IMG/VR virus record: IMGVR_UViG_3300044712_002699
Coordinates: 1 to 64,000 of that record
Source: a virus
Length of the DNA: 64,000 bases
Direction: 5' to 3' (one strand)
Shown one piece after another: positions 14,396 to 43,993 of this stretch; position 1 is the first letter of the stretch, and each line of letters begins with the position of its first letter. The notes under the pieces are model-generated. The model saw nothing but the letters and a program-made list of their open reading frames with translations, did no database searches and had not been told where the DNA came from. A program made the translations under genes and the position numbers.

Positions 14396-17300
14396 CTAGG
14401 CTTTGTAGTAAGCCTTATACATAAGACTCACTTTCTTAATAAAAAAGTCATATCTAGCAATAGAGTTCGATTGCTCTTCGAAGAGACTATCATCTAAGAA
14501 TCGAATCTTAGTTACCAGTGTATCGCCCGGAGCTATCTGAAGACCTCCGACACAGCCTATCTCATCGCTCACTCGAAACGCTTTCGTTATATTTGTAGTC
14601 TTGGGGTCTGAATCCGAAAAGAGGTGGTATTCGTATGTGGAGTAAAACTCCGAAGATACAGGAGGTACCTCCACGACTCCAGAACTTATTGTTTGAGCAA
14701 AATCAACCTCTGAACCGAGGATCCAAGACTCAAAACGAACTCTCATAGTAGACCCAAACGGAGACTGCGTAAAACAATCGAGACTGATGCTGAATGGATA
14801 CCCGAAAGCTACTGCATCAGGGACTGTAAAAGCGACTACAAGGGTTCCACCAACCGGAAGCTTGGTAACGGTTCCCAGATTCTTCATCTCATAATAAAGC
14901 GGGGGTGGATCACCGTCCAGTGCCTTCAATGGAGTTGTTACCCAATCGACTATCATTCCCGTATAAGAAGTAGAGTGATCCTTAAGGTTTATCTTCCCAA
15001 GGTATAGGGCCTCAACGGTTTCATTGTTAACACTAACTGAAAGAACTCCGTTTTCCGGCCTAAGTTGAGATACAAATAGGTCAGCATTGAGGTCTAACGT
15101 TCCCCACGCGGGCTTGGCACTACAAAGATACAGCGACCAATCCCCTTCAAAGAGAGGGGTCTTCATCAAATTCCCGTCGAGTCCTTTCTTAAGACCGAAA
15201 TTACTCGTCTCTGACGATGGATCATATGACAAAGATAGAGTAGGCACCTGTTCTCCGTCCACAAAACGAACTTCCTCGACATCCCTGAATACGATACCAC
15301 CAAACTTAGAAAGTGTCAAGCCAGCAATGTCGGTGTCAATACTGGTGGCTATAAAATAGTAAGGGTGAAGATAGAGATAAGGGCTAGGACGAACATTTAC
15401 TCTACCTAAACAATAAGCATAATGAGTTTTAACAACCTCATCCGTCTCTTGAGACCAAAAAACCTGGTTGGTAGTTAGGGGAGCATCTGGACACAGGAAC
15501 ATCTCCATCATATACTCCTCCCATTCACGATCGATGGAAGCCACATACACGTAATAAGTTCCAGGTTCCCACGACAGGTACCGGGGGCGCGTAGCAGTCC
15601 CGCTCACGACCTTGAGAGGTTGTCGATAAACCCCAAAACCGAGATCAAGTGAGGACTTCCACTTATATCCAAGCCGTATACACCCCTCAGCAGTTGGAAT
15701 AAATGGTATAGAAGTGGTTGCATCATATGCCAACACCCCGTCCTCTAAGACGAGACGCTCAGACAGAGGAAATTGATCATCAAGTTCGATCACCGGCTTC
15801 GTTGTCATGGGGTAAGGGATAACCTCCCAAGTTACCGTAACCTCCCCAAGTTTTATAGCCCATGTTTCAAGACCGGGAATTTGCAGCACTTCTTTTCCAT
15901 CAATAATGACAGAGTCCAGATTAGAAAGAAAGAGTTTTCCAGCGTAGTTTTTCCACTCAGAGGAGGCAGGAGCAAGATAAACTCCATAATCTCCGGTATC
16001 TATATTATGAATAGAAGAAAAAAGGTCTACCGAATCCTTAACTAGAGGGCTACGAAACTTCCCGGCTCCCTCTCGAAGAGTTAAATACGAAGCGTTAACG
16101 TAAGTACCGCAAACAATCAGTTTTGATGAAGAACGAAAAATCAAATCTCCATCTTCAGTCACAGAAAGCTTAAGGTGATGAGGGTCTTTAAGTGTTATCG
16201 AATACTTCAACCAAGTTGTAACAATTCCAAGATCATAGTTAGACCTCCACTCAACATTAACTCGGCCTACCTTCAAAGCCTGAACATACTCTCCCCCATA
16301 ACTAATTAGCACATTTAGTAGATTAGAAGAAGGATCGGGCTCGGCCCTACTGAGGAATAACTGACTACGGTATCCCATTCCAGCAAGAACCCACTTAGGA
16401 TTGTTGTCGGCGATATAAACATTATACTCTCCAAATATCCCCTGTACTCTAGATGCTACACTATCTTCACCCCCAGGGTCCAGAGGCAACCGATACCTAC
16501 CTCCGGATGTTAGGAGGCTGAGATCCGACACATCTACGAGATAGCCCCCCACTTCAATTGTAGGATCAATAGTATCAACATAGTTGAGCCGATCAGATGA
16601 TTCCCCGGTCAGGAGATGATAGTTTGGATGAGTTGTCTCCTCTTCCAATGACAACGAAACTTTACCGATACACTTACTAGTGATAGAACCAGTCTCCAAA
16701 GGAATCGTGAGGAAATTATCAGTTGCAGGGATATCCTTGCTTAGGTATAAATTGGCTCGATAATCAGGATTTACCGAGTCCCACGTATCTTCATCAGAAC
16801 CAATATAGACATAATAGTCTCCAGGCTCAAAGTTTTGAACATCTAGGGCACCGCCCAGGATTTTCAGACTCATAATATCCTTATAGTTAAAGAGCGGGAG
16901 CCGAATCTCTAAATAAGAAACATCCACGTCTTTGAGATTAATTGATCTAGTCGTATCAACCGAATCGGAAAAATATAGTATGTTATCTGGAGTAATTCCT
17001 AGATGATCATCGGAGCCCTCTTCAATAGAAATTTTGACGCACCGATGACCGAAGGCTTGGGTAAAATCATCTATAACTTGCTGAAACGTAGCTGTTATCT
17101 TTCCTACATTGATACAATAAGCAGGCTTTTTATCAAGATTAAGAACTAAGTAAGACCCCTCTGGATCAATTATAGAATTGATTAGGAACAGTTGCCCCTT
17201 ATAGTAATGGTTTAACTCATCCCAGCAATCTTCAATCCCGGCAATATACACTTGATATGACTGCTCAGTTCCTAAGTCAAATTTAGTTTCCGGCATCCAA

Positions 17301-20300
17301 TCCAATGTGAAGCTTTGAGGAATAAGTGGAGACCACCTATACGCTTTATGTTTTCTCTCCAAGTCATAGCTTTGAGCCGACTCAGCCTCATTAACGATCA
17401 AAGTATCTCTCAATAACTTGATATCTGAAACGTACGCGCCGCTAAGAGAGGGTGCCGGTTCACAAAAGTTAAATGGCACATCGGGTGCGGCACAAAAGAA
17501 GAATTCAGAAACCCACTCACACTTTTCACCAGTAGCATCTAAGATATCGGCTCCGTCCATTCTCCACCTGTAGACGTTGCCACTGTCTCGACGGATTTCT
17601 ATCTTAAACCATTTCCCTGCCGGTATGGTTGTGTCAAACAAATCGAAGGTTTGAGTTATAAGAGGATTGCCTGTTGGTATATCTAGTAATGTATATTCCA
17701 ACACTCGCCCCTCCCGTATGGCGGCTTGAACCTGACCTAAGTTTACCCTGAGATCGAACAGCACAATTTCTCTATCCACTAATTCAGATAATTCAGGAAA
17801 CCTCAAATAACAAGAAAATGAGAAACGGAGCCCAAGCTGCCAGTCATATGACTCGTAATCAAAAACCGGAAAACCAGACGTAGTCATAATACTGGTAGGG
17901 TTACCGTAAGGATCAACTATGTTTTCTACTGAAGACCCTAAGCCCGGGCTTACCTGATGTTGAAATGGTTCACAGGAGAAAAAATGACCCACAGCGGGAA
18001 TAGTGGTTTCTGTAAGGGGAACACTCAACATTACAGTCGAACCCTCTTGTGCAGACGGGGCTTCTCCAAAATATCGAATCGATTTGTTAAAAATATTTAT
18101 TTTCAAGTACGCGCTATGATCTTCAAACCAAGACTCTTGAATAGAATACCCCTCCCATGACTCAAAATTATTTGTCAGAGGTTTCAAAATTACGTGCCAT
18201 GTTCCTATATAAGTAGCCCGGTAATCGCCTGTCAAGAACATAGTCTGATCTAAGTCATGCTTAGCGGGCGTAACAAAAATCTGGTTTCGGTACTCTGGAT
18301 CGAATAGGCTCCACTTGTGGTCTCTGCTGGAAATATAAACGTGATAGGCCCCCGACTCATAACGATCCATTGTGTAGGGAAGACCGTTCTCAAAATACAG
18401 AGGTGGTCTTAAATCAAGGATCCCAAGACTCAACCTGCGTTCACGAATATATGTGAGATAACCGCTTATAGTACTGTAATATGTATCCGGGCTTCGGTAA
18501 ACAAGATCGTTTTGACCCGCGTCCCAATGAAGAGCCGGGCCAACTTTACATCGATACGCTCCCAAGAAAGTATCAGAACTCTGAATGTCCAGCACTGTCC
18601 ACTCAGAACCGTCCCACTTGATAACAACCCCATCTCCTGCGGCATAGACGTTGTCCGGGTTTGTTCCATGTACAGAGAAGAGATTAGAGACAGTTGGAGA
18701 GTCCATCTCGCCCCACACGGTTCCGTTAAAATAGAGAATTTTACCTCCGTCCCCGACAACAAATACGTCCCATCTAGAATGAGCCCAAGCGCCGTTGAGC
18801 CGTTCTGTAACAAATTGAGGGGCCTGTAAGAATGGGCCGCTTATTATATTACCCGAGAACAAAAACCCAATATACCCGTCATCCCCCACAACAACCGTGA
18901 AGGGATATTCTCCAGCAACAGTTGACACTCCATTGAGACGAGTTCCTGTGTACGCACATCTATTCCAAACAACATTTGCGCTTCCCACGCCTCTATTGAG
19001 AACCCTTCCATTCTCTCCCACAGCAATTACCATCTCGTGAGATGCTGAGACTGCTCTCATACCATCCGTAATTGGAGGAATATACTTCTCCCACACCTCT
19101 CCAACAATAAACATCAAAAACTTAGCATAACATCGAAACCTGAAATATCTAGATGGAGGTTCTGGCAAAACATAGTTGTTGTAAAGAATAGTTATTGGCT
19201 GCCAATAATCTGTCCAATCTTTCTGCCAAGTCTTACCGCTATCTTCAGAAACCAATATGGTAGTAGCAAGTCTAACATCCGGTAATAAAGAGGGCTGGTC
19301 TACCGGATCACCGACGCAGTAGATATAACCGTGTTCTGACGTAATCCCCTGGAGATGAGAGGGCTGGAAATCGAGTTGCTCCTGAGTAGGGGACACATCG
19401 CTCCAGTTATTCCCGTCCGCCGATTCGTTGTAATAACCAACATAACAATCCTCGCCACAAAAAAGAAGATTGTTCTTGTCGAATGTCGTATCGAAAGTAA
19501 CACCAAGCCAAGTATTGATACCAACCGGCTCAGACACCTGAGTAAACTCTGGGTCTCCTGAAACCGTCTTGTGGTATCGGTAACATTGCGACCCAGCGAG
19601 ATATAAGTCTTCTACAAGAGTCCCAGCGTTGGTCGGATCAAGGGTACACTTACTGATGTACCCGTCTTCAACAATTAGGTCTACTTCACCAACATATTTT
19701 GCTCCAATCTTATGGATCGGCTCCTGATAAATGGGGAAAGTGAGGTGAAATTCATCCGTTGATGCATCTATAAGAAACAACTGGTTTCGATAACCAGGAC
19801 ATAAAATATCCCATCTCTGAGTATTGGCTCCGACATAAACGTGATACTTACCAGTCTTGATGGCTTCAGTTCTCAGGTAATTGTACAGAATTCGACCATG
19901 TCCTAATGGGTACCGAAAGTTAGTAGCAGATGAGGAAACTGTTAAGTATCTGGTATCTACATTTGTCCCAGCTATCAGTTCAACTTCGTAGCCGATATAC
20001 ACCAAGTGACCGTGGACAAGATGAAGCCGAGTCGTTGGATTGTCAAGGATAGTTATTGTGGCTATCCTGGCTTTCTCCCTTGTAAAAGGGCTTACCACTT
20101 CTTCTAGATCAACATCAACATTCCCTACATACGCAGCCCCAACCCCTCTGTCTTGACCTATATTTAGTGAGAATAAACTATGATGACCCGGTCGATGACA
20201 AAAATCACTGCTGGATTCTACGAGAAAAAGATCACCCCGATAACCTACTCTTACAGCATCCCACTCTTCCTGGTTGGAGGCTATATACACATTACAGTTT

Positions 20301-21007
20301 ATCGTAGAAGTCGAAGATAATGGGTCGTAAACTTTTCTGGCATTGATCTGTAAAGGTTTTCGGAAGTCTCGTTTATCCGCCTTCAACGTTACGTACGCGG
20401 TAGAAACTTCTGTATCACCAACAAGTCTGGTGGGGGATACTCCAGGATCGTCCAGAACCAATCCACCAGGAATCTCAGAAAGATAAGGGTCGCTACCTTC
20501 CAACACGATTACGTTGAACCTAAAACCGCTTCCGTCAATTATCCTCGCGTTTATCCTAGCAGACCCTAAATGGAGTCCATAAACTCTTCGTTTTACCTGA
20601 CCATCTCGTATGATAACAGGTAAATTCAGAAGGTTTCCGTCGTTAGGAGTAGAGAGAGAAAGGAAAACCTGTCCTCGATAAACTTCGGGCCAATAGACGG
20701 TCGTGCTCGCAAGATAAACCTGATAAGTGCCGGGAACAAACTCTTCCCAATCGAGACGCGCCGATCCAGTAGTCCTCCACGTAACCTTTAAGATAGGTCT
20801 ATACTTACCCATACCCTGTCTTAGGGTTAAAAAAGAGGCAGGAACATCAGTACCACCTATCGGGAGAATAAAATTAGGGTCTGATGACTCATACTTTAGA
20901 CCCTCATACTCATCCAGGTTCAAGCCAGGATCGTAGGCTATCAAGTTCGTAATTTTAGGAGACGGTAAAGTATCTCCAAGCACAGTTATAGTAGGGTAGT
21001 AAGGCAC
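14396..21007 (-). CDS. Giant modular tail-fibre/adhesin protein (2203 residues)
   Basis: The GTG start at 21007 has AAAGGA 6 bases upstream. The N-terminus (MPYYPTITVLGDT) is like that of the 1661-residue neighbour. About ten copies of the repeated module follow the pattern YxVYxAS, W, YxxxLFL, then a KxxGKV strand: for example PGTYQVYLASTTVYW near residue 105 and GTYYVYVASIDREW near 1820. Residues ~456-810 form a BNR/Ycf48-like beta-propeller (VGENGRVLN, VGDGGKILYF, SEDSGKTW). Residues ~1000-1200 resemble a LamG jelly roll. The last ~160 residues share a domain with the 425- and 4329-residue proteins. Together these indicate a long surface fibre with carbohydrate- or protein-binding domains. 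Assignment to tail or baseplate is inferred from size, repeats and neighbours. Confidence 0.75.
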   Translation of the reverse strand: MPYYPTITVLGDTLPSPKITNLIAYDPGLNLDEYEGLKYESSDPNFILPIGGTDVPASFLTLRQGMGKYRPILKVTWRTTGSARLDWEEFVPGTYQVYLASTTVYWPEVYRGQVFLSLSTPNDGNLLNLPVIIRDGQVKRRVYGLHLGSARINARIIDGSGFRFNVIVLEGSDPYLSEIPGGLVLDDPGVSPTRLVGDTEVSTAYVTLKADKRDFRKPLQINARKVYDPLSSTSTINCNVYIASNQEEWDAVRVGYRGDLFLVESSSDFCHRPGHHSLFSLNIGQDRGVGAAYVGNVDVDLEEVVSPFTREKARIATITILDNPTTRLHLVHGHLVYIGYEVELIAGTNVDTRYLTVSSSATNFRYPLGHGRILYNYLRTEAIKTGKYHVYVGANTQRWDILCPGYRNQLFLIDASTDEFHLTFPIYQEPIHKIGAKYVGEVDLIVEDGYISKCTLDPTNAGTLVEDLYLAGSQCYRYHKTVSGDPEFTQVSEPVGINTWLGVTFDTTFDKNNLLFCGEDCYVGYYNESADGNNWSDVSPTQEQLDFQPSHLQGITSEHGYIYCVGDPVDQPSLLPDVRLATTILVSEDSGKTWQKDWTDYWQPITILYNNYVLPEPPSRYFRFRCYAKFLMFIVGEVWEKYIPPITDGMRAVSASHEMVIAVGENGRVLNRGVGSANVVWNRCAYTGTRLNGVSTVAGEYPFTVVVGDDGYIGFLFSGNIISGPFLQAPQFVTERLNGAWAHSRWDVFVVGDGGKILYFNGTVWGEMDSPTVSNLFSVHGTNPDNVYAAGDGVVIKWDGSEWTVLDIQSSDTFLGAYRCKVGPALHWDAGQNDLVYRSPDTYYSTISGYLTYIRERRLSLGILDLRPPLYFENGLPYTMDRYESGAYHVYISSRDHKWSLFDPEYRNQIFVTPAKHDLDQTMFLTGDYRATYIGTWHVILKPLTNNFESWEGYSIQESWFEDHSAYLKINIFNKSIRYFGEAPSAQEGSTVMLSVPLTETTIPAVGHFFSCEPFQHQVSPGLGSSVENIVDPYGNPTSIMTTSGFPVFDYESYDWQLGLRFSFSCYLRFPELSELVDREIVLFDLRVNLGQVQAAIREGRVLEYTLLDIPTGNPLITQTFDLFDTTIPAGKWFKIEIRRDSGNVYRWRMDGADILDATGEKCEWVSEFFFCAAPDVPFNFCEPAPSLSGAYVSDIKLLRDTLIVNEAESAQSYDLERKHKAYRWSPLIPQSFTLDWMPETKFDLGTEQSYQVYIAGIEDCWDELNHYYKGQLFLINSIIDPEGSYLVLNLDKKPAYCINVGKITATFQQVIDDFTQAFGHRCVKISIEEGSDDHLGITPDNILYFSDSVDTTRSINLKDVDVSYLEIRLPLFNYKDIMSLKILGGALDVQNFEPGDYYVYIGSDEDTWDSVNPDYRANLYLSKDIPATDNFLTIPLETGSITSKCIGKVSLSLEEETTHPNYHLLTGESSDRLNYVDTIDPTIEVGGYLVDVSDLSLLTSGGRYRLPLDPGGEDSVASRVQGIFGEYNVYIADNNPKWVLAGMGYRSQLFLSRAEPDPSSNLLNVLISYGGEYVQALKVGRVNVEWRSNYDLGIVTTWLKYSITLKDPHHLKLSVTEDGDLIFRSSSKLIVCGTYVNASYLTLREGAGKFRSPLVKDSVDLFSSIHNIDTGDYGVYLAPASSEWKNYAGKLFLSNLDSVIIDGKEVLQIPGLETWAIKLGEVTVTWEVIPYPMTTKPVIELDDQFPLSERLVLEDGVLAYDATTSIPFIPTAEGCIRLGYKWKSSLDLGFGVYRQPLKVVSGTATRPRYLSWEPGTYYVYVASIDREWEEYMMEMFLCPDAPLTTNQVFWSQETDEVVKTHYAYCLGRVNVRPSPYLYLHPYYFIATSIDTDIAGLTLSKFGGIVFRDVEEVRFVDGEQVPTLSLSYDPSSETSNFGLKKGLDGNLMKTPLFEGDWSLYLCSAKPAWGTLDLNADLFVSQLRPENGVLSVSVNNETVEALYLGKINLKDHSTSYTGMIVDWVTTPLKALDGDPPPLYYEMKNLGTVTKLPVGGTLVVAFTVPDAVAFGYPFSISLDCFTQSPFGSTMRVRFESWILGSEVDFAQTISSGVVEVPPVSSEFYSTYEYHLFSDSDPKTTNITKAFRVSDEIGCVGGLQIAPGDTLVTKIRFLDDSLFEEQSNSIARYDFFIKKVSLMYKAYYKA

Positions 21008-21018
21008 ATCAAATCCTT

Positions 21019-23742
21019 TTACTCGTCTATAGACAAGTAATGGCTAATCCTAAAATTGGAAAAGAAAAGTCGATGGACAGGGAATCGGTAAAAATACGAC
21101 TCTCCATACTGAGAAATTATACCCCAGCTATTTTCTGACTCCCTAAATGACATAATATAGTACTCTCGATTCGGAGAATCAGTTTCAAATAACGTTCTCG
21201 AGTATTGATACTCACACAAATCCCCATTTACGTCCCGAAGAATCTTCCAGTCTTCGTTTGAAGGTTTGATGTAAATCCTGATAATGGAGCTTGCTTTTTC
21301 TCTCTCGAACCGAAATCCCGTCACATAACCTTCGGGCGGAAAAATAAAATCAGGCCCCATATCAAATGGCATCCCCTCCACCGTGATACGCCCATACGAT
21401 CCACCGACTTCGTTACCGTTATAATAGGCTAGAGTAATCTCCCACGGAACAATGTTATCCTCAGTATCTTCAACCGCGTAACCAGACAAGATTGTTGATG
21501 TAAATTGAACCTGGGGAAATTTCATAAATAGCTCGACTCGGTATCCCTGAGACATTCTCATAGGATCTCTTCCAAGACTCAAGTCAGGGTGTACTATTAT
21601 CTTCACTTCTTTAAATTCGTACCCGCCGCCGTCTTCTGTTAAGGCATAAGAACTAACTCCAAGACACATACCCCCATCTTGCTGAGGCAAGTAACCCATA
21701 GACCCCCCACAATACACAAGAGAGGGAGACCATCCATACTCCCAATGCACGTCACCATACTCAGAAGTACCGGGGATCAACTCTGTAACTACAGTAGAAG
21801 CACATCGATATGTTACACAGAGTTCTCGAAAAAATTGCTCGGTCGTTAAAAAACCAGGACTCCCAGACTCAGATTCACAAGGAATACTGGTATCTTCGTA
21901 CCGGGTAAACGCATTTGCTAAATAATAGAACCCTGTAATCCAGTCATACTCTTCTACCGGGGCTGTACTCATAGCACCGGCACAGTCAGAGATATAGAGA
22001 GGAGAAACCTTTGTTGGGAGAGAGGTTCCTTTCTGTATCTTTATGTTTTTATAGTAGACCTTACCGTTATTACAAGAAAGCAAAGACGATTCAACCCCAT
22101 AACTCTGTGAACCAGTAAAGAAAGAGTCCGTGTCCCAATAAACGTCACTCTCCCAACCACAATATCTAGATCGCCTATCAAGAAGCACCTCATCGTTAAG
22201 GTACCACGTATAGGCATTCGTATCCTTATTTCTTGTAAGAGTTAACTTGAACCAAGAGTCGATAGGAATTGCTGAGAGATTTAATGCAAACTTGGCACAA
22301 AAACTCCCCCAGTTAATCTGAGACGCCTCGCTGTGAAAGACCCAAAATTTTCCAACTCTACTAAAACGAGCAAAAAACCAAGTTTCCATAGAAGGCATAA
22401 AAGGTTGAGGAGGCTGTTCCGAGGTAGAAAAGCTAAATAATGAAACACTCAGAGTAGTATATGTTACGTGAGAATCGATAAACAAATCAACATCAAATAT
22501 AAAGTTGGGGCCAGTAATAAAGGTATCTACGTTTCCTCCGTCAACAGTATTCAGATCTAAAATTACAAATCCCTGCCCGGCTCCTGTCATATATGCAGTA
22601 TAAGGCAAGCCCGTCCGGTCATCACTAGCTGCGGTAATAGTAATTGATCTATCAAAAACTTCGTCCTTAATAGTTCTCGTACCAACAGAGGGTATCTCAG
22701 TAAGAGGCAACTCAAAACTTGTCATTGGGTAAGGTATATAAGCAAAATCTTTCTTCCACAGGTCACTGGGAGTTGCTTCAGGTGGAGGCGGAGTAGTGGT
22801 CAGGGGCTCTGAGATATAAAAGATATCTACGGCGTACTCTTCATTAGATGACTCTCCTCCAAGATAATATATCTTATTTTGATACCCCACACCAACATGA
22901 GCCTCTCGATGAGTCCCCCCGTCAAGAATCGAACTCCAGTGTCCTATAGAAGGGTCGTACATCTCGTTATATGATGGGATAATACCTACGTCAAACGAGC
23001 CAGACCATACAAAGATACGATTCGCAATAACAGCACCAGCAGTATCACTTCGACCTGTAATGAGACCTGGACCCAGGGACCACGTAGAAGTCGAAAAGTT
23101 GAATATTTCTACTAAATTTTCTCTGTATTTAGCAAGAGAATTTCCGCCTATAGTAAAAAACTGGTTATTCAGAACAAGCCCTAAACCGAAAACTCTCCCA
23201 GTACCTCCGCTGACGCCCGATGTCCACTGACCTGTTGTGAAATCGAAAATATCCATAGAAGTAAAAACGCGCTGGTCATTACCCCAAAATCGCCTATCTG
23301 TCCCTCCCCACGCGTACATCTTTGTTCCGTAAACACCGCAACAATGTCCGAAGCGAGGTTGTCCTCCTGTAAGAGCACCTGTCCAGGTGTAATTACTAAA
23401 ATTGAATATATCCATTGTGTTCAAAACAACTTCACTGTAATAGTCTGAAACACCTCCCCATACATACATGTTATCATTGTAAACAACCGCGGAATGGTAT
23501 CTACGCGGAGTCGGGGCCTCTGGGCCTAGTGTCCAGACTCCATCGGCAATATCCAAAATATAGAGATTATTCGAGATGTGGTCGGTATCATTTGGATCGG
23601 TTCCCCATCCACCGAAATAGAATATCTTACCGCCATACTGAACAGCGGATCCCCACCCTGTCGGGTACATCTCTAGAGACATAGCAGGTCCGACAGACCA
23701 ACCATAAGATAGCGGAGATATTGTACGGGTTGTTTGAGTCAT
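21019..23742 (-). CDS. Kelch-propeller fibre protein with LamG-like domains
   Basis: A 907-residue protein. Residues ~15-330 contain about six kelch repeats, each with the typical GG, spaced Tyr and Trp (for example IFYFGGWGTDPNDTD, MYVWGGVSDYYSE, MYAWGGTDRRFWG, IYYLGGESSNEE), forming a beta-propeller. Residues ~360-575 look like a concanavalin/LamG jelly roll (SWFKLTLTRNKDTNAYTWYL), and a second jelly-roll-like region covers ~700-900. It lacks the repeated YxVYxAS module of its neighbours. It starts at an ATG without a good ribosome site, 15 bases after the previous stop, so it may be translated by coupling. Kelch propellers are uncommon in phage structural proteins; here one probably serves as a binding tip or enzyme-like head of a fibre. 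Confidence 0.8.
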   Translation of the reverse strand: MTQTTRTISPLSYGWSVGPAMSLEMYPTGWGSAVQYGGKIFYFGGWGTDPNDTDHISNNLYILDIADGVWTLGPEAPTPRRYHSAVVYNDNMYVWGGVSDYYSEVVLNTMDIFNFSNYTWTGALTGGQPRFGHCCGVYGTKMYAWGGTDRRFWGNDQRVFTSMDIFDFTTGQWTSGVSGGTGRVFGLGLVLNNQFFTIGGNSLAKYRENLVEIFNFSTSTWSLGPGLITGRSDTAGAVIANRIFVWSGSFDVGIIPSYNEMYDPSIGHWSSILDGGTHREAHVGVGYQNKIYYLGGESSNEEYAVDIFYISEPLTTTPPPPEATPSDLWKKDFAYIPYPMTSFELPLTEIPSVGTRTIKDEVFDRSITITAASDDRTGLPYTAYMTGAGQGFVILDLNTVDGGNVDTFITGPNFIFDVDLFIDSHVTYTTLSVSLFSFSTSEQPPQPFMPSMETWFFARFSRVGKFWVFHSEASQINWGSFCAKFALNLSAIPIDSWFKLTLTRNKDTNAYTWYLNDEVLLDRRSRYCGWESDVYWDTDSFFTGSQSYGVESSLLSCNNGKVYYKNIKIQKGTSLPTKVSPLYISDCAGAMSTAPVEEYDWITGFYYLANAFTRYEDTSIPCESESGSPGFLTTEQFFRELCVTYRCASTVVTELIPGTSEYGDVHWEYGWSPSLVYCGGSMGYLPQQDGGMCLGVSSYALTEDGGGYEFKEVKIIVHPDLSLGRDPMRMSQGYRVELFMKFPQVQFTSTILSGYAVEDTEDNIVPWEITLAYYNGNEVGGSYGRITVEGMPFDMGPDFIFPPEGYVTGFRFEREKASSIIRIYIKPSNEDWKILRDVNGDLCEYQYSRTLFETDSPNREYYIMSFRESENSWGIISQYGESYFYRFPVHRLFFSNFRISHYLSIDE

Positions 23743-34000: not shown

Positions 34001-37000
34001 TAGGAACCCATAAGTGTCTTGGTCTCTATATCCAAAGTGTGCTTGATTAAGAGAAAAGTCCTGATCCTGATAAGGTCGAGAAAACCGAAATCGTATATAG
34101 TTTCCGCTTGTAGTAAAATCCACAAACCTTCGAAATGTTCCTGAAACAGAGTCCCATCCATTTATACTGTCTGCGGATGTAAGGGTTGATTCCTCTTCCT
34201 CGAGAATATCTTTAACTTCGATACGAGTTATATCAGCAGACGCTGATGGAGAATAGAGCCCGTAACCGGAGACTGAATCCAGATGGGCCTCGCTGGCACC
34301 TCCTTTATAATACGTAGCCTCCTTAGACCCCCGGTTACCTATAGACAGACCCTCAGTATACAGTTGTAACCTCGACATCGCCTCTTCAGTAGGAATTGTT
34401 ACCCAATCTGACCACACTGACTCTGATCCTAAATCTAAGAATAGAGACGTATCTTGCCCCTCGTTGAAAGTGATCTGAGCCACAACTGGGTCTTCAATAG
34501 GTGGAGTATTAAATGCCCCCCATTCACCCACCCACACTTCAGAAATTAAAAGAGGCTCTTGTGCCAGGGGAGGGATAGTAAACTTAAATCTCACAACCTT
34601 AAACTCTTCTCTTGTGAAAATGTTTTGTACACAAGAAATAGTCTTATTTGTGGAGGGCGTATAGATTTGACGTGAAAACTCAGTAACGACAGAACCACCC
34701 TTCTTAGATTCAATACTAACGACATCACCATAAGTGTAAGTATCAAAAGACTCAGAGGGCTCATCAGTAGCAGCATTAGCAGCCGATCCAAAATAAAAAA
34801 CTCTTGGTTCGGGACAGAAATTTCCTATTCCGTACCCGTCCCACGAAAGAAGATAAGTCTTATAAGCCCAACCAGTGTCTGGCCCAGGAAAAGCATACGA
34901 AATCCAGTCTGACCAAACGGTTGTTGTAGTTCGCGGATCAATTACCACGGACGATTGTCCGCTAAACGTTACCCTTCTGACCAGTCCGGGAGTAGAAGTA
35001 AAGTTATGGCTCCAACTATACTCTGCGACACCAAAGAAACAGTTATAAATATTTGCTGGAACTATTGATCCGGGAGGGACGGAGAATTGAAAGCGTATAC
35101 GGGAAAAACTCGAGTACATGTTTAGGGCTCGTCTTATTAGAACCGGCTCAGATGAATTAAATTCGCTGTTAACAATGTTCGCTCTGAAGACTGTTCTTGC
35201 CTGACTGCTTTCTTCTACCTGAATCTCCGAGACGTCAAGTTTTTTAGTCGTATTCCCTGAACTGTTCCGGTATGCTTCTCCCACATCATCTTTGTTAAGG
35301 AGCCCGTATCCATCCCAAGAGATGAGGTAGTCATAAGAGGTATTAACAGAATAGTCTAACCAATCGGTCCACACCTCTGTTTTGCCGACTGACGCGTCTA
35401 ACACATACTGTGATCCCCCCGAAAAAGTTAGGGGTAATTTTCCTGTATAGAAGACGTAATTATAGTTTCGTTGCCCAAAATAAGCCTGGTTAATAATCGC
35501 GTAGCCCTTAGTGGACCCGCAGGGCAAGGAAAACTTGAATCTAACTCGATCAGAATCCTTAACAAAGGACACAACTTGTCTTACATGACACGCCGAGGCC
35601 GAGGACGCCGTCAGAGTATCGTAGTGACAAGACGCCGTGTCAGTCCCATCAAATGCCTCGACTTCAGAGAACGTACTGTACGTATAAGACGATTCAGAGA
35701 GTCTCGGTACGTCTTCTGAGGCTTGATTTGAATTTGATTCAAAAAACGTAGTCAAGAAATCTGAACTAAACCCGAAATCTACAGCCGATCCATCAAAGGC
35801 TAATAAATACTCAATATCCTCTGATATATCAAAATCTACCCAATCCGACCACACCGATGATCCTGGACTAATCTGTAATCCCTCGTTTGAGGAAAACGTC
35901 ACTTGGGATTTTAGGGGATCAGGAGCAAAAGCGTAAGACCCGCTCAGCTGTCCAAAGTAACACTGAGACAGAGAAAAATCGGTCACAGAACTAGTGGGAC
36001 AAGAAAACAAGAATCTGATTCGAGAAGCCGCTTCTCTGGGTCTAATCACGATACGAAACTCGGTATTCCTTGATACAATGTCTTTAGAAATAAACAGTGT
36101 ACTCAATCGATCAGGAAGTGTGGACGAACTAGTTTCAAAAAGTTGAAATTCATTGAATGATATAGAATACGAATACCACCGGGCACTAGCATAGAAGCGG
36201 TAGTATCTGTAAGCCGTAGTATTATTAAAAGTCAGAACGGCAAACTCAGGATAGTTACCCAGAGATGGATTAAAATACGTAGTGCTGTACAGGTTAACCC
36301 AGTTCGAATTATCATTTGATCCCTGTATTGCAAAGTCTCTTGGGGCGTAGTAGGAGCCACCAATCATATATCTAATCTTAGTGACAACTCTTGCATTGCC
36401 TGACCCGAGATCTATCTTCGTCCAATAAGGCGCTGAACCACTTATTGGATTTGATGTCGTAGTATTATCATCATAGACTCGATAAGCATAATTAGAACCA
36501 TCAGACTGAGAAACAACGGCAGGAGATGGAGATGAGTTAGCGTACATGCCCACATTGATTCTCCCCACTAAGTCCTGATTATCACTATACTCAAACCCAC
36601 CCACTACCGGTAAATTATAGAAGTTATCATAATCACCGCCAGGAAATTCTGCTGAATCAACCCCCCACACACCCGATTTTTTGAAAGCATACCTGTAAAC
36701 ACCTCCGGCTATACTACTTCTGTGCCCAAGATATCCTCCCTCATAAGAAACCATATAGGTCTTACCTTTTTGAATGCTAAATGTCCCCCAATCTGTCCAA
36801 GATGAACGAAGGTCTCCTATTAACTGTTTTCCACTACTACCCGAAAATGTGAGTTGGATTTTTGAAGGGGTCGAAGCAAAATGGTAATTAGTCCCAGGGG
36901 CCACTTCTCCAAAATAACAAGAAGTGAGGAGCATAGGCGACGCCGAATCCTTTCCAAACCTTACCCTTACCCCCATCGCGTCTCTAGGCGCTACCCAAGG

Positions 37001-40000
37001 AGCCCTAAAATTATAGGAATAAGTCGGAAATCCAGATGATAAATCGTTGTTTACCTGATAAATAGTTTCTACAGTTCCGGATCCTCCTGCTGACGAGGAC
37101 AAATCTATACCTATTATATCCATCCACGCTGTGTCACTTCCATAAGAAAAGGAAGGAACATCTACGTTTGCATAACCAGAACCACTAGTATAATATACAT
37201 AGGGGGTAGCCACACCGTGCAACGGTTCATACGTATCAATAGCAATTAGAAGATACGGGTCTCCGTAATCACTAGAAAGTTCTGTTATTGATACCCAGTC
37301 CGACCACAAAGATTCACCCGGAGACAGGGTAACGCCCGCGGACCCGGAGTTAAAGGTTACCGGGATTATACTACCAGCAAAAATCGTTGATAGGTTACCG
37401 TTAGTTATTCCAACAGTCATAGCCTGTATAGTTAAATCATCAGTGGCATCCTCCGGGTTAACCAACTTCAATCTAATATGACCATTTCCCATATATTTAT
37501 CAGTTATTACAAAACGAACATGATACTTTTTTCGTTCCGAAGCACCTTCTCCGGTAGTTATCGGGAATGTATGGAGACGTTTTATCCCCGATCCATCATA
37601 ATCAACCTCGACACTGGAAAGAGGAGCTGACCAATCTATTCCTAGTGACGTAAAATCAGTCGGAGGTTCCTCCATATGAGAATTAGAAGAAGAGACACTT
37701 TTATAGCCAGACCCCACAGAAGCAGTTTCAACATTCGTATAAGCATCTCCGGAAGACTCATCCCAAGACAAGACATAGTTACCGGAACTAATGTCAAAGT
37801 TAATCCAGTCAGACCAGATTTCTGTATCTTGATCACTTAAAAAAATAAGTCTTTGAGAACTATTAAACGTTACAGGCTGCTTTTGCGGACTCGACGCGAA
37901 ACAATATGGGTCTGAAGCCAGTGAGTCTTGCTTTCCAAAATAGACCTCACTAATACAGATGAGCGAAACTATGTCGGGCGGAGCAGACACCTTAAACCTA
38001 ACTCTGCTAAATGAACCATCGAAGTATAAGACTCGACGGCGGGTCGCTGCGGCTTGGCCTGTTCCAGTCACTGGTCTGGCAAAATTATTCGTTACCTCTC
38101 CATCGAGGCTAGTTTCTATTTGTGACACATCAAGTGCAGTTGTAGAAGATACTAGGTTCCACGAGTAATCTTCTTCAGCATCCAATGCCTCTCTGCCGTA
38201 AGCAATCTCCAAGTCCGACCCGAAATTGTTATTAAGAGACCCATCCCACCATAAGAGATAAATGCTGTCAGGGGGCTGCTCAGAAAAATCAAAATCAATC
38301 CAATCGCTCCAAAACTCTTGCATATATGTATCGATATCTATTGACGGATAGCCCGCAAAAGTTAACGGGATAGGATCAAGGCTTGGGTCAAAAACAAATG
38401 CTATATTACTTTGAAGTCCAAACTTTGCCGACTTTATCCTAACAGATTGAACGTCAGTTATATTCGTCGAGAACCTAAATCGAATCTTTGTGGCTGAATT
38501 TGATGCCGTCTTGAAAGCTTTAATACATATATCTCCATAAGCCTCTCTCGAAATAATCACCTGTTCCCGGACGTCTACTACTCCGGAGCTGGGCGTTACT
38601 TCGATCTGAGAAACGTCACAGAGATCATAAATATAATCGAATCCGTAAGTATAATCGGCTGCTCCGAGCTGATTTTTCTTATATGAATCATTAAGAACAA
38701 CAGTATTTCCAGCAGTAGGACCGCCCCACGAGATAATATAACGTACTCCCTTTGTCATCGAGAACGAAACCCAGTCAGACCAAATCGTAGAGAGGGGAGG
38801 TAGATTTAGGTAGGGTTGACCGTTATTGAAGGTAACAGGAACTTTCGATGGAGGATTGACAAAATGAGGGCCGATGTCATCATATTCATCAAGAACTCCC
38901 TGATTAGCCATTCCGAAATATGCCCGCGTGATAACCAACGGCTCTGATGTATTAAGTGACTTAAACTTGAACCTTATCTGGTCACAGTCTTGACTCGGGG
39001 TGACCCATAACCTAAAACTGTTCCCGGTTATCTTACTGTATGTAAGATCATTATCTAACTTTACAGCGGGGATAGAGGATATCCTCGATCCTATAACGGT
39101 AGCCGTGATAACATCAGTACCCGGATCCGGTTCTATAGAACTTAGAATGAGAGAATTTTGACTGCCAATTAGAACTTGATCTTCCCATTCAGGCTCATTA
39201 CCAGTCAAATAAACATTATAAGTCCCACTTTTCGGTTCGGCAGGAAGAGATAGAGAAAGCGTATCACCTCTATAAGAAATAATCGGAGGTAACTGATACG
39301 TCTTCGGAACGTTTAGTGTTAGATAAGAAACATCAATAACAGACCCCCCAATCTCCATAATTCCGAGATCGGGGTCTGAAAAATACAGTTCATTCGTCAC
39401 GGGGTGTGTTGCTAAACCCTTCGTGTAGGGCTCAAGAATCTCTATCTCAGAGATTTGATACGTCGGCATAGCATAGTTTATCGTATCCTGGATTCTAGAA
39501 AACTTAATCCAGGCTTGCCCGAGCTTAATAGCATCGACAGAATTTTCGGAATCTACTGAGATAGGAAATGAAAAATTTTCCGACGCCCTAGTTAAAAACA
39601 GCCCACCACTAGAAGATAGATTGTAGTAAGACTCAGCCTGCTCCCACCCATAAAGAGAAGGAGTGACCCAAATATCCCACAGTTCTCTCTGTCCTCGGTC
39701 GAACAGACTCACCCCGAGAAGAGTGTTCTTATAATAACGAATAGTCTTCTTAACATTTGTGTAAAACCGCCGAGAACTAATCAGATCGAGATTAGCAACT
39801 TTCGTTCGGTAAGGCCCGATAAATTTGTAGGGATTCTGACTGTTAACGTAGGCTGGATTACTGCCGCCTCCGTAATAATCCATTCCAGCGTCTACTCGGT
39901 CTATGATAACTCCCTCTGTTGGATAGTATCGGTATCTTTGCTCTTCTTCATCGAAGAAACTATTAATAGTGTAACTCATCGCCCCGAGATAGTAAGCATA

Positions 40001-43000
40001 ATAATGTTCGCCTGTATCAGGAGTGTGGGGGTCGAAAACCAGTCCATCGCTTGCCCTTGTGAGAAACATCTTACCGCGATGGTCTACACTTAAATTTTCC
40101 CACTCCTGCTGATCAGCAGATATCCATACAGGATAACTAGAATCAGAATACGATTGATAGGAATCTTGGGGAACTGTTAGAGTCCGTTCGTCTCGGTTCA
40201 AAAGAATACTTGAGCCACCAGCAGTTAAGGTCAGGTCAAGCCCAGGTGTTCCTGAGACCGAAAAGGACTGGGCAGTTTCGATAATATCACATGAAATAGC
40301 GCGCCCGAGTGAATTTGTGGTAATCTCTACTACGCCATAGTACGTGGCGGTAAAGAGATTATTGGTAGCATAATGCTGGAGAGGAAAATAGTTCTGAAGA
40401 ACTTCTCCAGTCAGATCGTCTCGATGCTTAACAAGGAAGGCTTTTCCACTGTACCTCGTCAATTCCGTATAGCCAAAAGCCCCCGAAGTCGAAGCCTTAA
40501 AAACTTTGTACTGAACAGTCTCCGAGGCTGTGAGAGAAAACATTGATGGGTGCATATACCCAGGAGCCAGAGCAAGCCCGCCCAGAACGATCCCTGTCAA
40601 AAAATCGTGAAACAACTCTGTAAGATTATTTGTTATACTTCCTAGGAGGATTCCGTCTCTATCTAAGGCATAAGAAATAGTCCCCAAAAAATCACCCTTT
40701 ATAACCCGTTCCTCGTCAACAATTTGAAAATGTCGTCTCCAATTAGACTCTCCGTACTGAACAGGTATGCCTGACCGGTACTCTTTAAAGGTCATAGCGC
40801 CGGGGTCATCAGCGGGACGTATCATAAAAGGAGGCCCGTCAATAGAAACGCTCTCAAGTATGTACTGATTACCCACATAGCCCAAGTCGAGTTCGTACCT
40901 TCCTCCAGGTCTTCCACAGTACTTCGCTGCTATAGTCTCAGTGAAGTTCATTTGTGTAAGTATTCGTATATCAAATACTCCACCTTCAATTTCTTTATAA
41001 TGATAACCCACGGGGGCATAAACATTGAAAGTGATCGATCCCTGCTCGAAAATTCTCTTATCTGATACAAGATCGTAGTATCTTGGCCCGGGAAATAGTC
41101 TTCTATCTCTGCAATGTAATGCCATCCCCTGCAAAATAAGGGAAGTGGTTCTAAGAGTGACGTGAATATCCCACTCAGTTGGGGATACTTGAGTCGCAGT
41201 CATAACCGGATTGTTATCCCACGTTCTCGAGTCCTTGAGACCTGAAAACTTATAGAGCCAATCGTTTATTGTTTTTGGTTCAATAAAAGGAGTTCCAGCT
41301 ACTTGACCCTTCCATTTCAGAAATTCATTAACTTTATCGACGGCTTCGTAGAGTTTTAGACTCAGGGGATATTCGGTAAAACGAAGTATCTTTACTTCTG
41401 CTTTCAATAAAAAAGCAACGTCGGTAAGTTCTAATGGATTGGTGCATACAGCGTAAATCTCATAGTAATCACCTGGCTCTAAATAGACGACGTTGGGGGG
41501 AACTTTAAGTTCATACTTCTCAAGGTATCCGGAAACAGGGAAATGAAGAGAAGGTAAACCTCCAGGTGGATCTGGTTCTCCATTGAGTCTCAACCCCACG
41601 GTACCTGTAAAAGGTCTATCCGCATAAAGGCTATAATATATCTCATAGTATCCGGCCTGCTTGATACGCATCTTCGAACCATCAAGCTCACAGTAGGCCG
41701 AGTTTTCGGTAACAGGTAAATCGAGGTCTAACACTACTCCTGGGAACACCCTCAAATTTAGAGACGTATCTCTACAAATAGCATCCCCTACTACGGGATT
41801 AACCAGCGTCGTCTGTCCGCCCTGTGTAAAAGAGGTAATCCTATTATTCTTTAAGTGAACGTCAACATTGAAAATATCCTTAGAAATAGCAGGCGATTCA
41901 ATGCTTACGCGCTCGCTGCCCCAAAGGTCTACCCAACCATCAGGACCAGGTGATCCCCCAGGACCTCCTGGTGGAGATTGGTAAGAGTTGTAAGGCACTT
42001 CGGCCCAAAAATCTTCCCACGCTCCAGCCCCATCATTGGGGCGATCAAAAACGGTTGATCGATGCGTCTGAAGACATTGGTAGACCGTAGTAACCCTTAA
42101 TACGTACTCGTCCTGTTCGTAGAAAAAGTCATCCTCCCACGGGTCCGGATCTTCTTTAAGATGTGGCCCCCAGTATCCTTGGTTAGCCTCCATCGAATAG
42201 GTAATTTTCCCCATATAGTAGGCCCTAAGTATCCCGTACACGCTATCGTACGGAAATTCTCTCGGCGGGTCTACAGTATCGGGGGTACCTTCATAGGGCA
42301 TCAGAAAAATCTGTCCGCGGTAAACCGGGTCGAAGTGTTCCCATGTAGGATCATCTAAGGCCATCCAAACTCGATAAACCGGATACTGAGTCGTAGCAAA
42401 AGTCAGTTTTTCTAATGTTCCGTTTGCTAAATTTTTCTGGATCGGAGGTCTCCAAGAACCTGATGGGGACATTCTAGCGAGTCGTTTAACCGGATATTTA
42501 AATCCTATCGACTTACGCTTGACCATCTTCAGTGGATTCTTGAAACTCTCGTTGTCATTCTCAACAACAACTAAATCTCGATAGACCCATTTATGTAACT
42601 GCAGGGTATACTTATCCGTCCCTTCAGTGTATTGAGGTTCATTGTTTGCATTAACGGTTAGGTTGACATCAGACCCATCCGCAATTTCCGTCTCCATAAT
42701 GTACTCATTACCATCTGTAAGTGTTATAGATGCAATCCCCAGGAATTTATCGGTAACTAGGGCGTGAGTAGGATCGGTTTCAAAGTCTGTCGCTTGGAGA
42801 CACTTACGCCCAACCAGAGGTATTGCTTCTGGATCAATGACCTCTACCAGCGAAAGATTATAAATTCCAGAAGTCAGAGTACGGTATTCACTCCGGAGTT
42901 GTATTGTTTTATCCAGAGTAATTACTGGCCTAAATAGGTGAGAATTAAAATGAAGAGGAATATACCGGCACTGTACTTGCTCACCCCCAATCAATCGAGA

Positions 43001-43993
43001 GGGAACATCTTCATTAGCATAAAACAAAACATATTCATCTCCTATCATTCTAGATTGGAGATAAGGTTCACCTTCTATGATAGTCAGACCATAAATATAA
43101 AGCCCGGTATTTGGATAACTGTGATTCGTATCTACATCGATAGTAACCTTTCCTACATAAAAAGCGTCCAGCGTCCTACCGTCTCTCAAATTAATTGGGA
43201 ACGGATTTCCGCTGCCTGTACTCGACGTCATAAGAATTAAATGACCCGACAGACCAGGCCATACCTCTTCCCACTCCGGTTGGCCGGAAGCTATAAAAAC
43301 ATTACAAGTCCCACTGGACGCCGGAGAAACCCCAAAGAAATCCTTCACCGAGGGCACTAGCGGTAAATTCAGAAGAGGATATCCGAAACGACAAAAGAGA
43401 TACTCATATGGTATTGAATCTTCTCCAACTTCTACCTGTTCACCTTCTTCTCCAATATAGTAGATTCGGTTTCTCGAACAAGCTAGTTTTCCATTGGTTC
43501 GGTCACTGTCTATATAAGAGGTATAGTCGTAACGAGAACCAACTAAATAACCAATAGTTGAAATAGAACCTAAATAACGACAAGAAATAGTTTTACCACT
43601 AACTAAAGGGATCTCCTTAATAACTTCTACCTGCTCTGAATCAGGCTCCATATTATCACTAAGAAAAAGGTTTAGCCGATAATAGCCCCACGCCTGATCC
43701 CCCGATGCAACGTAGACGTGATAGGTTCCTTGTTTATATTCAACAGGTACTAAGGCAAATTTAGACCCCACAGCAGTAAGATGAAGGATGGGTTTTCCTG
43801 AGTCACGGTTAGTGACATAACCCGCAGCCATCGGACTAGTTCCCAAATAAACGTTAGGATCGCTCTGATCACTAAGTATAAGTCCCTGAGGATCTTTTTG
43901 ATCCATATTAATTCGCGGGTCTCTAGTGTCTAGGAGCTGGATGTCCGGTACGTGCGTATATTCGTCAAGGATTTCGAATTCAGTTTTAGCCAT
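31004..43993 (-). CDS. Giant modular tail-fibre/adhesin protein (4329 residues)
   Basis: The largest gene in the window (13 kb) and among the largest proteins known in phages. About eight YxVYxAS-W-FL modules lie in residues ~60-1640 (GTYHVYVASGDQAW, SGTYNVYLTGNEPEW), with a C1q-like jelly roll at ~750-870 and a short PPGGPGGSPGPDG linker near 670. Residues ~1650-3410 hold ten copies of a second module marked by YFG, VTF and WSDW, interrupted at ~2475-2625 by a discoidin (F5/8 C) domain. Four more YxVYxAS-type modules follow, then the C-terminal domain shared with the 2203- and 425-residue proteins. AGGAG lies 2 bases before the ATG, a short spacing. It would be a very long fibre, probably homotrimeric, that displays many binding domains. 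Function is inferred from domain content. Confidence 0.78.
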   Translation of the reverse strand: MAKTEFEILDEYTHVPDIQLLDTRDPRINMDQKDPQGLILSDQSDPNVYLGTSPMAAGYVTNRDSGKPILHLTAVGSKFALVPVEYKQGTYHVYVASGDQAWGYYRLNLFLSDNMEPDSEQVEVIKEIPLVSGKTISCRYLGSISTIGYLVGSRYDYTSYIDSDRTNGKLACSRNRIYYIGEEGEQVEVGEDSIPYEYLFCRFGYPLLNLPLVPSVKDFFGVSPASSGTCNVFIASGQPEWEEVWPGLSGHLILMTSSTGSGNPFPINLRDGRTLDAFYVGKVTIDVDTNHSYPNTGLYIYGLTIIEGEPYLQSRMIGDEYVLFYANEDVPSRLIGGEQVQCRYIPLHFNSHLFRPVITLDKTIQLRSEYRTLTSGIYNLSLVEVIDPEAIPLVGRKCLQATDFETDPTHALVTDKFLGIASITLTDGNEYIMETEIADGSDVNLTVNANNEPQYTEGTDKYTLQLHKWVYRDLVVVENDNESFKNPLKMVKRKSIGFKYPVKRLARMSPSGSWRPPIQKNLANGTLEKLTFATTQYPVYRVWMALDDPTWEHFDPVYRGQIFLMPYEGTPDTVDPPREFPYDSVYGILRAYYMGKITYSMEANQGYWGPHLKEDPDPWEDDFFYEQDEYVLRVTTVYQCLQTHRSTVFDRPNDGAGAWEDFWAEVPYNSYQSPPGGPGGSPGPDGWVDLWGSERVSIESPAISKDIFNVDVHLKNNRITSFTQGGQTTLVNPVVGDAICRDTSLNLRVFPGVVLDLDLPVTENSAYCELDGSKMRIKQAGYYEIYYSLYADRPFTGTVGLRLNGEPDPPGGLPSLHFPVSGYLEKYELKVPPNVVYLEPGDYYEIYAVCTNPLELTDVAFLLKAEVKILRFTEYPLSLKLYEAVDKVNEFLKWKGQVAGTPFIEPKTINDWLYKFSGLKDSRTWDNNPVMTATQVSPTEWDIHVTLRTTSLILQGMALHCRDRRLFPGPRYYDLVSDKRIFEQGSITFNVYAPVGYHYKEIEGGVFDIRILTQMNFTETIAAKYCGRPGGRYELDLGYVGNQYILESVSIDGPPFMIRPADDPGAMTFKEYRSGIPVQYGESNWRRHFQIVDEERVIKGDFLGTISYALDRDGILLGSITNNLTELFHDFLTGIVLGGLALAPGYMHPSMFSLTASETVQYKVFKASTSGAFGYTELTRYSGKAFLVKHRDDLTGEVLQNYFPLQHYATNNLFTATYYGVVEITTNSLGRAISCDIIETAQSFSVSGTPGLDLTLTAGGSSILLNRDERTLTVPQDSYQSYSDSSYPVWISADQQEWENLSVDHRGKMFLTRASDGLVFDPHTPDTGEHYYAYYLGAMSYTINSFFDEEEQRYRYYPTEGVIIDRVDAGMDYYGGGSNPAYVNSQNPYKFIGPYRTKVANLDLISSRRFYTNVKKTIRYYKNTLLGVSLFDRGQRELWDIWVTPSLYGWEQAESYYNLSSSGGLFLTRASENFSFPISVDSENSVDAIKLGQAWIKFSRIQDTINYAMPTYQISEIEILEPYTKGLATHPVTNELYFSDPDLGIMEIGGSVIDVSYLTLNVPKTYQLPPIISYRGDTLSLSLPAEPKSGTYNVYLTGNEPEWEDQVLIGSQNSLILSSIEPDPGTDVITATVIGSRISSIPAVKLDNDLTYSKITGNSFRLWVTPSQDCDQIRFKFKSLNTSEPLVITRAYFGMANQGVLDEYDDIGPHFVNPPSKVPVTFNNGQPYLNLPPLSTIWSDWVSFSMTKGVRYIISWGGPTAGNTVVLNDSYKKNQLGAADYTYGFDYIYDLCDVSQIEVTPSSGVVDVREQVIISREAYGDICIKAFKTASNSATKIRFRFSTNITDVQSVRIKSAKFGLQSNIAFVFDPSLDPIPLTFAGYPSIDIDTYMQEFWSDWIDFDFSEQPPDSIYLLWWDGSLNNNFGSDLEIAYGREALDAEEDYSWNLVSSTTALDVSQIETSLDGEVTNNFARPVTGTGQAAATRRRVLYFDGSFSRVRFKVSAPPDIVSLICISEVYFGKQDSLASDPYCFASSPQKQPVTFNSSQRLIFLSDQDTEIWSDWINFDISSGNYVLSWDESSGDAYTNVETASVGSGYKSVSSSNSHMEEPPTDFTSLGIDWSAPLSSVEVDYDGSGIKRLHTFPITTGEGASERKKYHVRFVITDKYMGNGHIRLKLVNPEDATDDLTIQAMTVGITNGNLSTIFAGSIIPVTFNSGSAGVTLSPGESLWSDWVSITELSSDYGDPYLLIAIDTYEPLHGVATPYVYYTSGSGYANVDVPSFSYGSDTAWMDIIGIDLSSSAGGSGTVETIYQVNNDLSSGFPTYSYNFRAPWVAPRDAMGVRVRFGKDSASPMLLTSCYFGEVAPGTNYHFASTPSKIQLTFSGSSGKQLIGDLRSSWTDWGTFSIQKGKTYMVSYEGGYLGHRSSIAGGVYRYAFKKSGVWGVDSAEFPGGDYDNFYNLPVVGGFEYSDNQDLVGRINVGMYANSSPSPAVVSQSDGSNYAYRVYDDNTTTSNPISGSAPYWTKIDLGSGNARVVTKIRYMIGGSYYAPRDFAIQGSNDNSNWVNLYSTTYFNPSLGNYPEFAVLTFNNTTAYRYYRFYASARWYSYSISFNEFQLFETSSSTLPDRLSTLFISKDIVSRNTEFRIVIRPREAASRIRFLFSCPTSSVTDFSLSQCYFGQLSGSYAFAPDPLKSQVTFSSNEGLQISPGSSVWSDWVDFDISEDIEYLLAFDGSAVDFGFSSDFLTTFFESNSNQASEDVPRLSESSYTYSTFSEVEAFDGTDTASCHYDTLTASSASACHVRQVVSFVKDSDRVRFKFSLPCGSTKGYAIINQAYFGQRNYNYVFYTGKLPLTFSGGSQYVLDASVGKTEVWTDWLDYSVNTSYDYLISWDGYGLLNKDDVGEAYRNSSGNTTKKLDVSEIQVEESSQARTVFRANIVNSEFNSSEPVLIRRALNMYSSFSRIRFQFSVPPGSIVPANIYNCFFGVAEYSWSHNFTSTPGLVRRVTFSGQSSVVIDPRTTTTVWSDWISYAFPGPDTGWAYKTYLLSWDGYGIGNFCPEPRVFYFGSAANAATDEPSESFDTYTYGDVVSIESKKGGSVVTEFSRQIYTPSTNKTISCVQNIFTREEFKVVRFKFTIPPLAQEPLLISEVWVGEWGAFNTPPIEDPVVAQITFNEGQDTSLFLDLGSESVWSDWVTIPTEEAMSRLQLYTEGLSIGNRGSKEATYYKGGASEAHLDSVSGYGLYSPSASADITRIEVKDILEEEESTLTSADSINGWDSVSGTFRRFVDFTTSGNYIRFRFSRPYQDQDFSLNQAHFGYRDQDTYGFLTSPPKIRVTFGGVSGFTMSGTEIDVWSDWMRYDILQGHKYLLTWDGSAVGYLTAVPSARIGGVNRANIIDITEFDIKGIEYYEREVTSKLVGVVEVQMKEVNLGKSPLINVQRTETANSIVVGSPEDTSLGTLVTSEGVPFCLPQYLTDSVEETQYSSDTFNPLQVVEFDRWNKAAFAKQVDMKDGVYYIYQMADENFFYNITTETSDAGSEYDATNIVGYDGRIFLSQAEPDQYGYIYLTAPEATSFSWWNYPQLCSAFKIGTCKVGESVAASWITSKAELMPEIFIDPTVSQDEDATIGIYPDLDRTVPGGHYSLSDIRDWEIVVRNLTKHRIVLGYVGQLSSLRRQKMEQFGFSFLTLSDVPTHSWTSPVVVEGLSKEFYLVDNFTFYIIFVTEDGDLLLRGPGPKEVSGTCVDSSIKSLRSGVGKFRNPLRLIGGYPEVTKIDPGLAYYLYLAPSDPSWQDFSGQLFLSSESPSLFEGEYVLDSSITLAKALCIGRVSTTKELTLTSNYGNYIFDVFPGSDIQLKVGESSEDLYWEERLPQFEHHCLSDGAAVYSGSSPYNEYGDRVNPLLVGKVLLLFEDKPLALSLPGYETHFPAAERVDAGIYYIYRTVPDVRWMSFSDAAFLSMSPPDKSGEKSWSGFFETTEVRSWCVGKVILRYGPSQSLEQVYPGAAQILEGSDYLRIVSDNSLRYVDEDNWKKTIRATEVVLLGMSWSYSDGNGKPLFFDPLTSQISVVDEFLEGIYNVYVSSMELGWEDLSLDYIGSLFLCQAEPNTVGDILTSYIGSEQVQAWKVGRVQVTYFRASESQPESKFSGFGSTVVSGTNPIATETVVPDSGIRSFFSGGEVYIGAVMLPIYAEGKPIYLELQFILPPDLNNKDCVIQITSWCLDYTIDLDEYFVSGQPPPVIDNASFLLTQEIGLDDLMNSRIKMFKVTDNSGRIGQRQVNLGDSIIAKVVVKSNAVVSNKTLQIVPEPVISSLTFLFHPVESEEQG
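33750..39060 (-). repeat. Ten-copy WSDW protein repeat array
   Basis: Within the 4329-residue protein, units of ~130-190 residues repeat: a VRFKFS strand, AYFG, a VTF strand, WSDW (once WTDW in two units), then a YLLSWDG strand. Copies differ too much at DNA level to align exactly, so the array is old. I do not know the domain. Confidence 0.75.
36125..36575 (-). other. Discoidin (F5/8 type C)-like domain inside the giant adhesin
   Basis: Residues ~2475-2625 read VGRINVGMYANSS, then YRVYDDNTTTSNPIS, WTKIDLGSG, IRYMIGG, FAIQGSNDNSNW and YRYYRFYAS, the strand order of F5/8 type C domains, which bind sugars or lipids on cell surfaces. Confidence 0.75.

Follow-up and report, generated by a model that had tools for sequence, protein, structure and literature searches.

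In phage RaK2, many large fiber proteins are encoded in a cluster of ~19 kb that lies away from the other structural genes (PMC10253068), and these long tail fibers resemble the proteins described here in the comparable total size of the fiber proteins (PMC10253068). The RaK2 fibers carry depolymerase domains, whereas none are recognized in the present cluster, which is also larger and owes its bulk to one repeated module. At the level of single domains, the nearest possible counterpart lies in the major tropism determinant (Mtd), by which Bordetella phage BPP-1 binds its receptor: Mtd, whose second domain is Pfam PF21916 (structure 1yu0), gives the top three fold matches to a two-unit model of the repeated module, here called unit 1, and has the two motifs in the same order, at a score far below significance. 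The Mtd domain occurs once, whereas unit 1 is repeated ~30 times and is marked by a short helix and a W that never varies. With respect to head genes, Rhizobium phage RHph_TM30 (Kleczkowskaviridae) offers the same order, TerL–portal–gp280–protease–capsid, although its head genes fit within ~7 kb and its genome contains no copy of unit 1.

The window analyzed here consists of positions 1 to 64,000 of the 80,743-base IMG/VR virus fragment IMGVR_UViG_3300044712_002699. A single minus-strand operon runs from 43993 to 14396, with at most about 15 bases between genes, and encodes, in order, proteins of 4,329 aa (31004 to 43993) and 1,661 aa (26017 to 31002), a GT2 glycosyltransferase of 256 aa (25247 to 26017; PF00535, E 7e-27), proteins of 70 aa (25045 to 25257) and 425 aa (23758 to 25035), a Kelch protein of 907 aa (21019 to 23742), and a protein of 2,203 aa (14396 to 21007). 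The five reading frames singled out by the original prediction (4,329, 1,661, 70, 425, and 2,203 aa) had been placed and measured correctly, all on the minus strand. At 29.6 kb, the cluster takes up 37% of the 80.7-kb contig; this size agrees with its having been called exceptional for a phage, but the ~19-kb fiber cluster of RaK2 (PMC10253068) tempers that description.

We modeled unit 1 with a profile seeded on Y-x-V-Y ... W ... L-F-L, which was aligned and iterated to 121 positions. At i-E < 0.01, the profile identifies 30 copies: 11 in the 4,329-aa protein, 7 in the 1,661-aa protein, a partial one in the 70-aa protein, one in the 425-aa protein, and 10 in the 2,203-aa protein. A weak copy near residue 3550 of the 4,329-aa protein (i-E 0.0067) is counted separately; all others reach 1e-13 or better, and no copy is present in the rest of the contig. 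Shuffling residues in 50 protein sets produced a best i-E of 0.0015 and values below 0.01 in 2 of the 50 sets. Because the profile is trained on the very copies that it detects, we repeated the training with single genes: the profiles of the three large proteins gave 17, 21, and 19 matches in the held-out genes at i-E < 0.01, most of them between 1e-7 and 1e-17. A profile built from the copies thus recovers all 30, most of them again when their gene is held out, which, together with the shuffled controls, bears out the original claim of some 30 copies of one repeated unit in five proteins; as judged by these matches, unit 1 is one homologous unit across the genes of the cluster.

The motif by which the unit had first been described is correct, as is its repetition, but its length was underestimated at ~100 residues: the conserved core spans ~121 residues in a period of ~146. 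The conserved block takes in G-G-T-x-V ... Y-L-x-L ... R-x-P-L upstream and a terminal [LIV]-G-x-V, and the W is invariant in an alignment of 25 copies. Pairs of copies are 20% identical on average and 36% at most, in line with the view that, by sequence, the array is old and highly diverged. DNA repeats within the cluster are short and imperfect, and tandem DNA repeats are confined to collagen-like genes outside it. With a maximum identity of 36% and no long DNA repeat left, the further suggestion that the array still expands is unsupported, and we reject recent expansion.

Several other elements, all absent from the original prediction, accompany unit 1: an array of a second module (unit 2), a discoidin domain, a Kelch propeller, a shared C-terminal domain, and a split copy of unit 1. 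The 4,329-aa protein carries unit 1 at both ends and unit 2 in the middle. Its copies 1 to 4 (residues 51 to 609; 42167 to 43843, minus strand, as are all features of the operon) match the profile at i-E 1e-15 to 1e-24, and the same search places copies 5 to 8 at residues 1151 to 1646 (39056 to 40543) and the C-terminal copies at residues 3741 to 4157 (31523 to 32773); the weak copy, recognized by its i-E and by eye, lacks the W and covers residues ~3520 to 3600 (33194 to 33436). Between them lie ten copies of unit 2, a W-S-D-W module (residues 1656 to 3386; 33836 to 39028), detected with a self-trained profile at i-E 1e-28 or better. Unit 2 has no match in Pfam, and in the PDB its profile finds only chains of SGNH esterases, at nonsignificant E values of 0.027 to 0.32. 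The likeness is to the N-terminal domain of SGNH/GDSL esterases, the only PDB family found; unlike those enzymes, unit 2 adjoins no catalytic domain and stands in ten tandem copies. This resemblance, though weak, fits a putative sugar-binding beta domain. The unit 2 array is interrupted by a discoidin (F5/8 type C) domain (residues 2497 to 2606; 36176 to 36505), which scores 29 bits against PF22633, above the cutoff of 27.8.

The remaining proteins of the operon are variations on these elements. The 1,661-aa protein has its seven unit 1 copies at 27682 to 30864, and the region C-terminal to them is without a match. In the 2,203-aa protein, ten copies (19637 to 20860, 18143 to 18469, and 14936 to 17377) have two other stretches inserted among them. 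The Kelch protein contains no unit 1 copy; its propeller (22837 to 23673) exceeds the cutoff of PF24681 with 99.7 bits and shows Kelch_1 in four stretches. A C-terminal domain, identified with leave-one-out profiles, is common to the 4,329-aa (31007 to 31471; 6e-10), 2,203-aa (14399 to 14860), and 425-aa (about 23956 to 24378) proteins, and the N termini of the giant proteins resemble one another. A simple hydropathy scan, as opposed to a trained predictor, revealed no signal peptide or N-terminal hydrophobic segment in the giant proteins (N-terminal hydropathy at most 0.67) and no strong membrane span. One reading frame contains both the 70-aa and the 425-aa gene, with a TAA at 25045 to 25047 plus three codons between them. 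A unit 1 match at 24913 to 25176 spans this stop, so that one copy is cut in two, with its first part in the 70-aa protein and the rest in the 425-aa protein, which also contains a whole copy (24421 to 24783). The TAA may be a real mutation, the boundary between split but coupled genes, or an error of sequencing; stop-codon recoding is rejected, since TAA is the commonest gene stop on the contig.

By sequence, unit 1 resists assignment to any known family. Searches of Pfam, PHROGs, and NCBIfam with its copies returned no confident match; GP88 (E 0.0035) and DCD_N (E 0.011) each appeared in 1 of 12 copies and were rejected as chance. No relative was found by tblastn of the proteins and the unit consensus against 50,697 phage records, by peptide-pattern scans of IMG/VR, by degenerate DNA patterns run on IMG/VR and on 84,980 species genomes (with retrieved matches scored by the profile and, for the first IMG/VR scan, among the 80 of 113 matches listed), or by the profile itself on ~795 genomes of bacteria and eight records of phages or viruses, a search that included a positive control. 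The pattern scans are shallow, and as no DNA pattern covers more than a few of the 30 copies, an absence of relatives among their results is no proof. Nor was a close relative of the phage itself found.

Structure prediction gives unit 1 a possible, distant connection. An AlphaFold model of a single unit, based on 25 aligned copies, has a confident core (block-mean pLDDT of about 83 to 98) and no Foldseek match in the PDB or BFVD. Confidence is lower for a model of two units (mean pLDDT 70, pTM 0.46), in which both have the same strand order and short helix; the first three PDB matches of this model are all Mtd variants (1yu0, 1yu2, and 1yu3, with E values of 0.028, 0.053, and 0.073 and probabilities of 0.89, 0.54, and 0.75). 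The original statement that the unit could not be matched to a family therefore stands for sequence, but the two-unit comparison points weakly to the second domain of Mtd. On the Mtd sequence, the unit 1 profile scores far below significance, although its two motifs (G-x-Y-x-V-Y and the strand G-x-V) align correctly in position and order. Compared with a profile of the Mtd second domain built from 72 sequences, unit 1 attains a score that is reached by 9 to 10 of 200 column-permuted controls; against a broader profile combining Mtd with W-Y-x-V-Y tail-fiber modules, it exceeds all 150 controls, and against the eight non-Mtd members alone, it does not beat the controls. We reject membership in PF21916, whose model matches nothing in the whole contig up to E 10 and none of the unit 1 copies. 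Unit 1 may nonetheless be remotely related to the second domain of Mtd, a relation that we treat as a lead and not as membership. Mtd is the target of a diversity-generating retroelement; a search of the present contig, a fragment, for the corresponding reverse transcriptase (PF00078) found no match, although positive controls were detected.

The position of the operon is odder than its size. The contig encodes homologues of the capsid, protease, gp280-like, portal, and TerL proteins of RHph_TM30, at 28 to 36% identity, and the presence of capsid, protease, portal, and TerL identifies it as a phage. In RHph_TM30, one IMG/VR contig, and the more distant phiLo, the head genes fall within about 8 kb. 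Here, the portal gene (59924 to 61573; 28% identity to the RHph_TM30 portal, E 3e-52) lies on the upstream side of an insertion of ~52 kb that includes the operon, and the genes for the gp280-like protein (7406 to 8116; 32%, E 4e-26), head maturation protease (5376 to 6905), and major capsid protein (3112 to 4563), the latter two recognized by homology, lie on its downstream side, all on the minus strand. Such a separation is unusual, and it does not in itself tell where on the particle the proteins are located. The contig, being a fragment, has no recognized tail gene.

We think that the cluster is probably a tailed-phage operon for very long, multidomain adhesins or fibers borne on the virion. 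Arguing for this interpretation are the phage genes of the contig, the homologous units, the discoidin and Kelch matches, the weak esterase matches of unit 2, the shared ends of the proteins, the two-unit model with Mtd as its first fold matches, the lack of an N-terminal hydrophobic segment on the giant proteins, and the fiber proteins of comparable total size in RaK2 (PMC10253068); arguing against it are the subsignificant resemblances of unit 2 and of Mtd, the single-unit model without a fold match, the placement of the operon between head genes and not beside tail genes, of which none is recognized on the contig, and the failure of the searches to turn up a relative in which the cluster is conserved. 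The original term "adhesin" is plausible in view of the discoidin domain, the possible esterase-type beta modules, the Kelch protein in the operon, and the lack of a signal peptide on the giant proteins. The placement of the operon is what the main rival explanation addresses: if the proteins were head fibers or a decoration of the capsid surface, attached to the capsid or a vertex instead of the tail, their location between the portal and capsid genes would be explained, and the collagen-like genes that adjoin the capsid gene would fit as well. Gene position, however, says little about where on the particle a protein is found, and searches of family libraries found no similarity to a known head fiber. 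We regard this alternative as unlikely.

Two further explanations appear to us very improbable. The giant proteins have a layout comparable to that of large bacterial repeat adhesins, and they could be cargo destined for the surface of the host cell or for export rather than parts of the virion; against this stand the lack of a signal peptide or strong membrane span and the embedding of the genes in a phage head block. The cluster might also derive from another genome through chimeric assembly, in which case the 52-kb separation of head genes, adjacent in the relative, would be an artifact of a record that is itself a fragment. Yet the composition of the cluster is that of its surroundings, nearly all genes are on one strand, and the two flanks point to one and the same phage family.

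If the proteins are virion adhesins or fibers, as we favor, the ~30 unit 1 modules, small beta-rich domains that may be remotely related to the second domain of Mtd, would be strung into arms, among which the ten esterase-N-terminal-like units, the discoidin domain, and the other stretches are interspersed, with the Kelch protein supplied by the same operon. The shared N-terminal stretch and C-terminal domain could allow several arms to dock with one another or at a common site on the particle. Glycans on the host surface would be the ligands of the arms, with weak contacts adding up by avidity, presumably before the tail engages, and the glycosyltransferase of the operon may decorate the arms. 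More tentatively, and with considerable doubt, unit 1 could represent a domain family with a fold absent from the PDB and restricted so far to a single phage lineage, where it forms giant appendages of the virion whose genes lie within the block of head genes. Unit 1 is a phage domain that sequence libraries have missed despite its 30 copies and confident model, and its profile could help to recognize other giant unannotated phage proteins. Were the link to Mtd true, a domain present singly in a receptor-binding protein would have been turned into the repeat brick of giant fibers. With an insertion of ~52 kb interrupting a head block that relatives keep compact, it may further be asked where on the particle such proteins are located and how they are assembled.

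Other genes on the contig merit mention. Possible homing endonucleases are encoded near the edges of the inserted stretch (44539 to 45624, 61686 to 62528, and 1815 to 2900, all minus strand); two resemble each other and look HNH-like by eye only, and one has a LAGLIDADG match. Collagen-repeat proteins follow the capsid gene (1 to 981 and 1021 to 1695, minus strand), one of them with a perfect 27-base tandem repeat. The sole large opposite-strand gene in the window (45706 to 47538, plus strand) is, by eye only, NAD-dependent DNA ligase-like. At least nine unrelated minus-strand genes, the giant genes not among them, start with M-x-[TSK]-A-x-x-I-L-x-x-I-x-E-A-L (51528 to 56006, 59307 to 59732, 9155 to 9673, and 6948 to 7358 in the window, plus five more at 67760 to 72021 of the contig). 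This pattern, defined after some instances had already been noticed, occurs nine times at N termini, never at plus-strand N termini, and twice elsewhere in 27,788 residues; we take it to resemble the capsid-targeting leader of T4-type phages. Also on the minus strand are a hybrid sensor histidine kinase with two PAS, HATPase, and receiver domains (10535 to 12601), here part of a phage genome; a 1,488-aa protein that has ankyrin repeats at its C terminus and a PcfJ-like stretch (51525 to 55991); an RlaP-like RNA-repair nucleotidyltransferase (48468 to 49709; PF10127); and, elsewhere on the same contig (L007 numbering), a spermidine synthase (2946 to 3797), a dihydroorotate-dehydrogenase-like protein (8129 to 8968), and an M24 peptidase (12026 to 12922).
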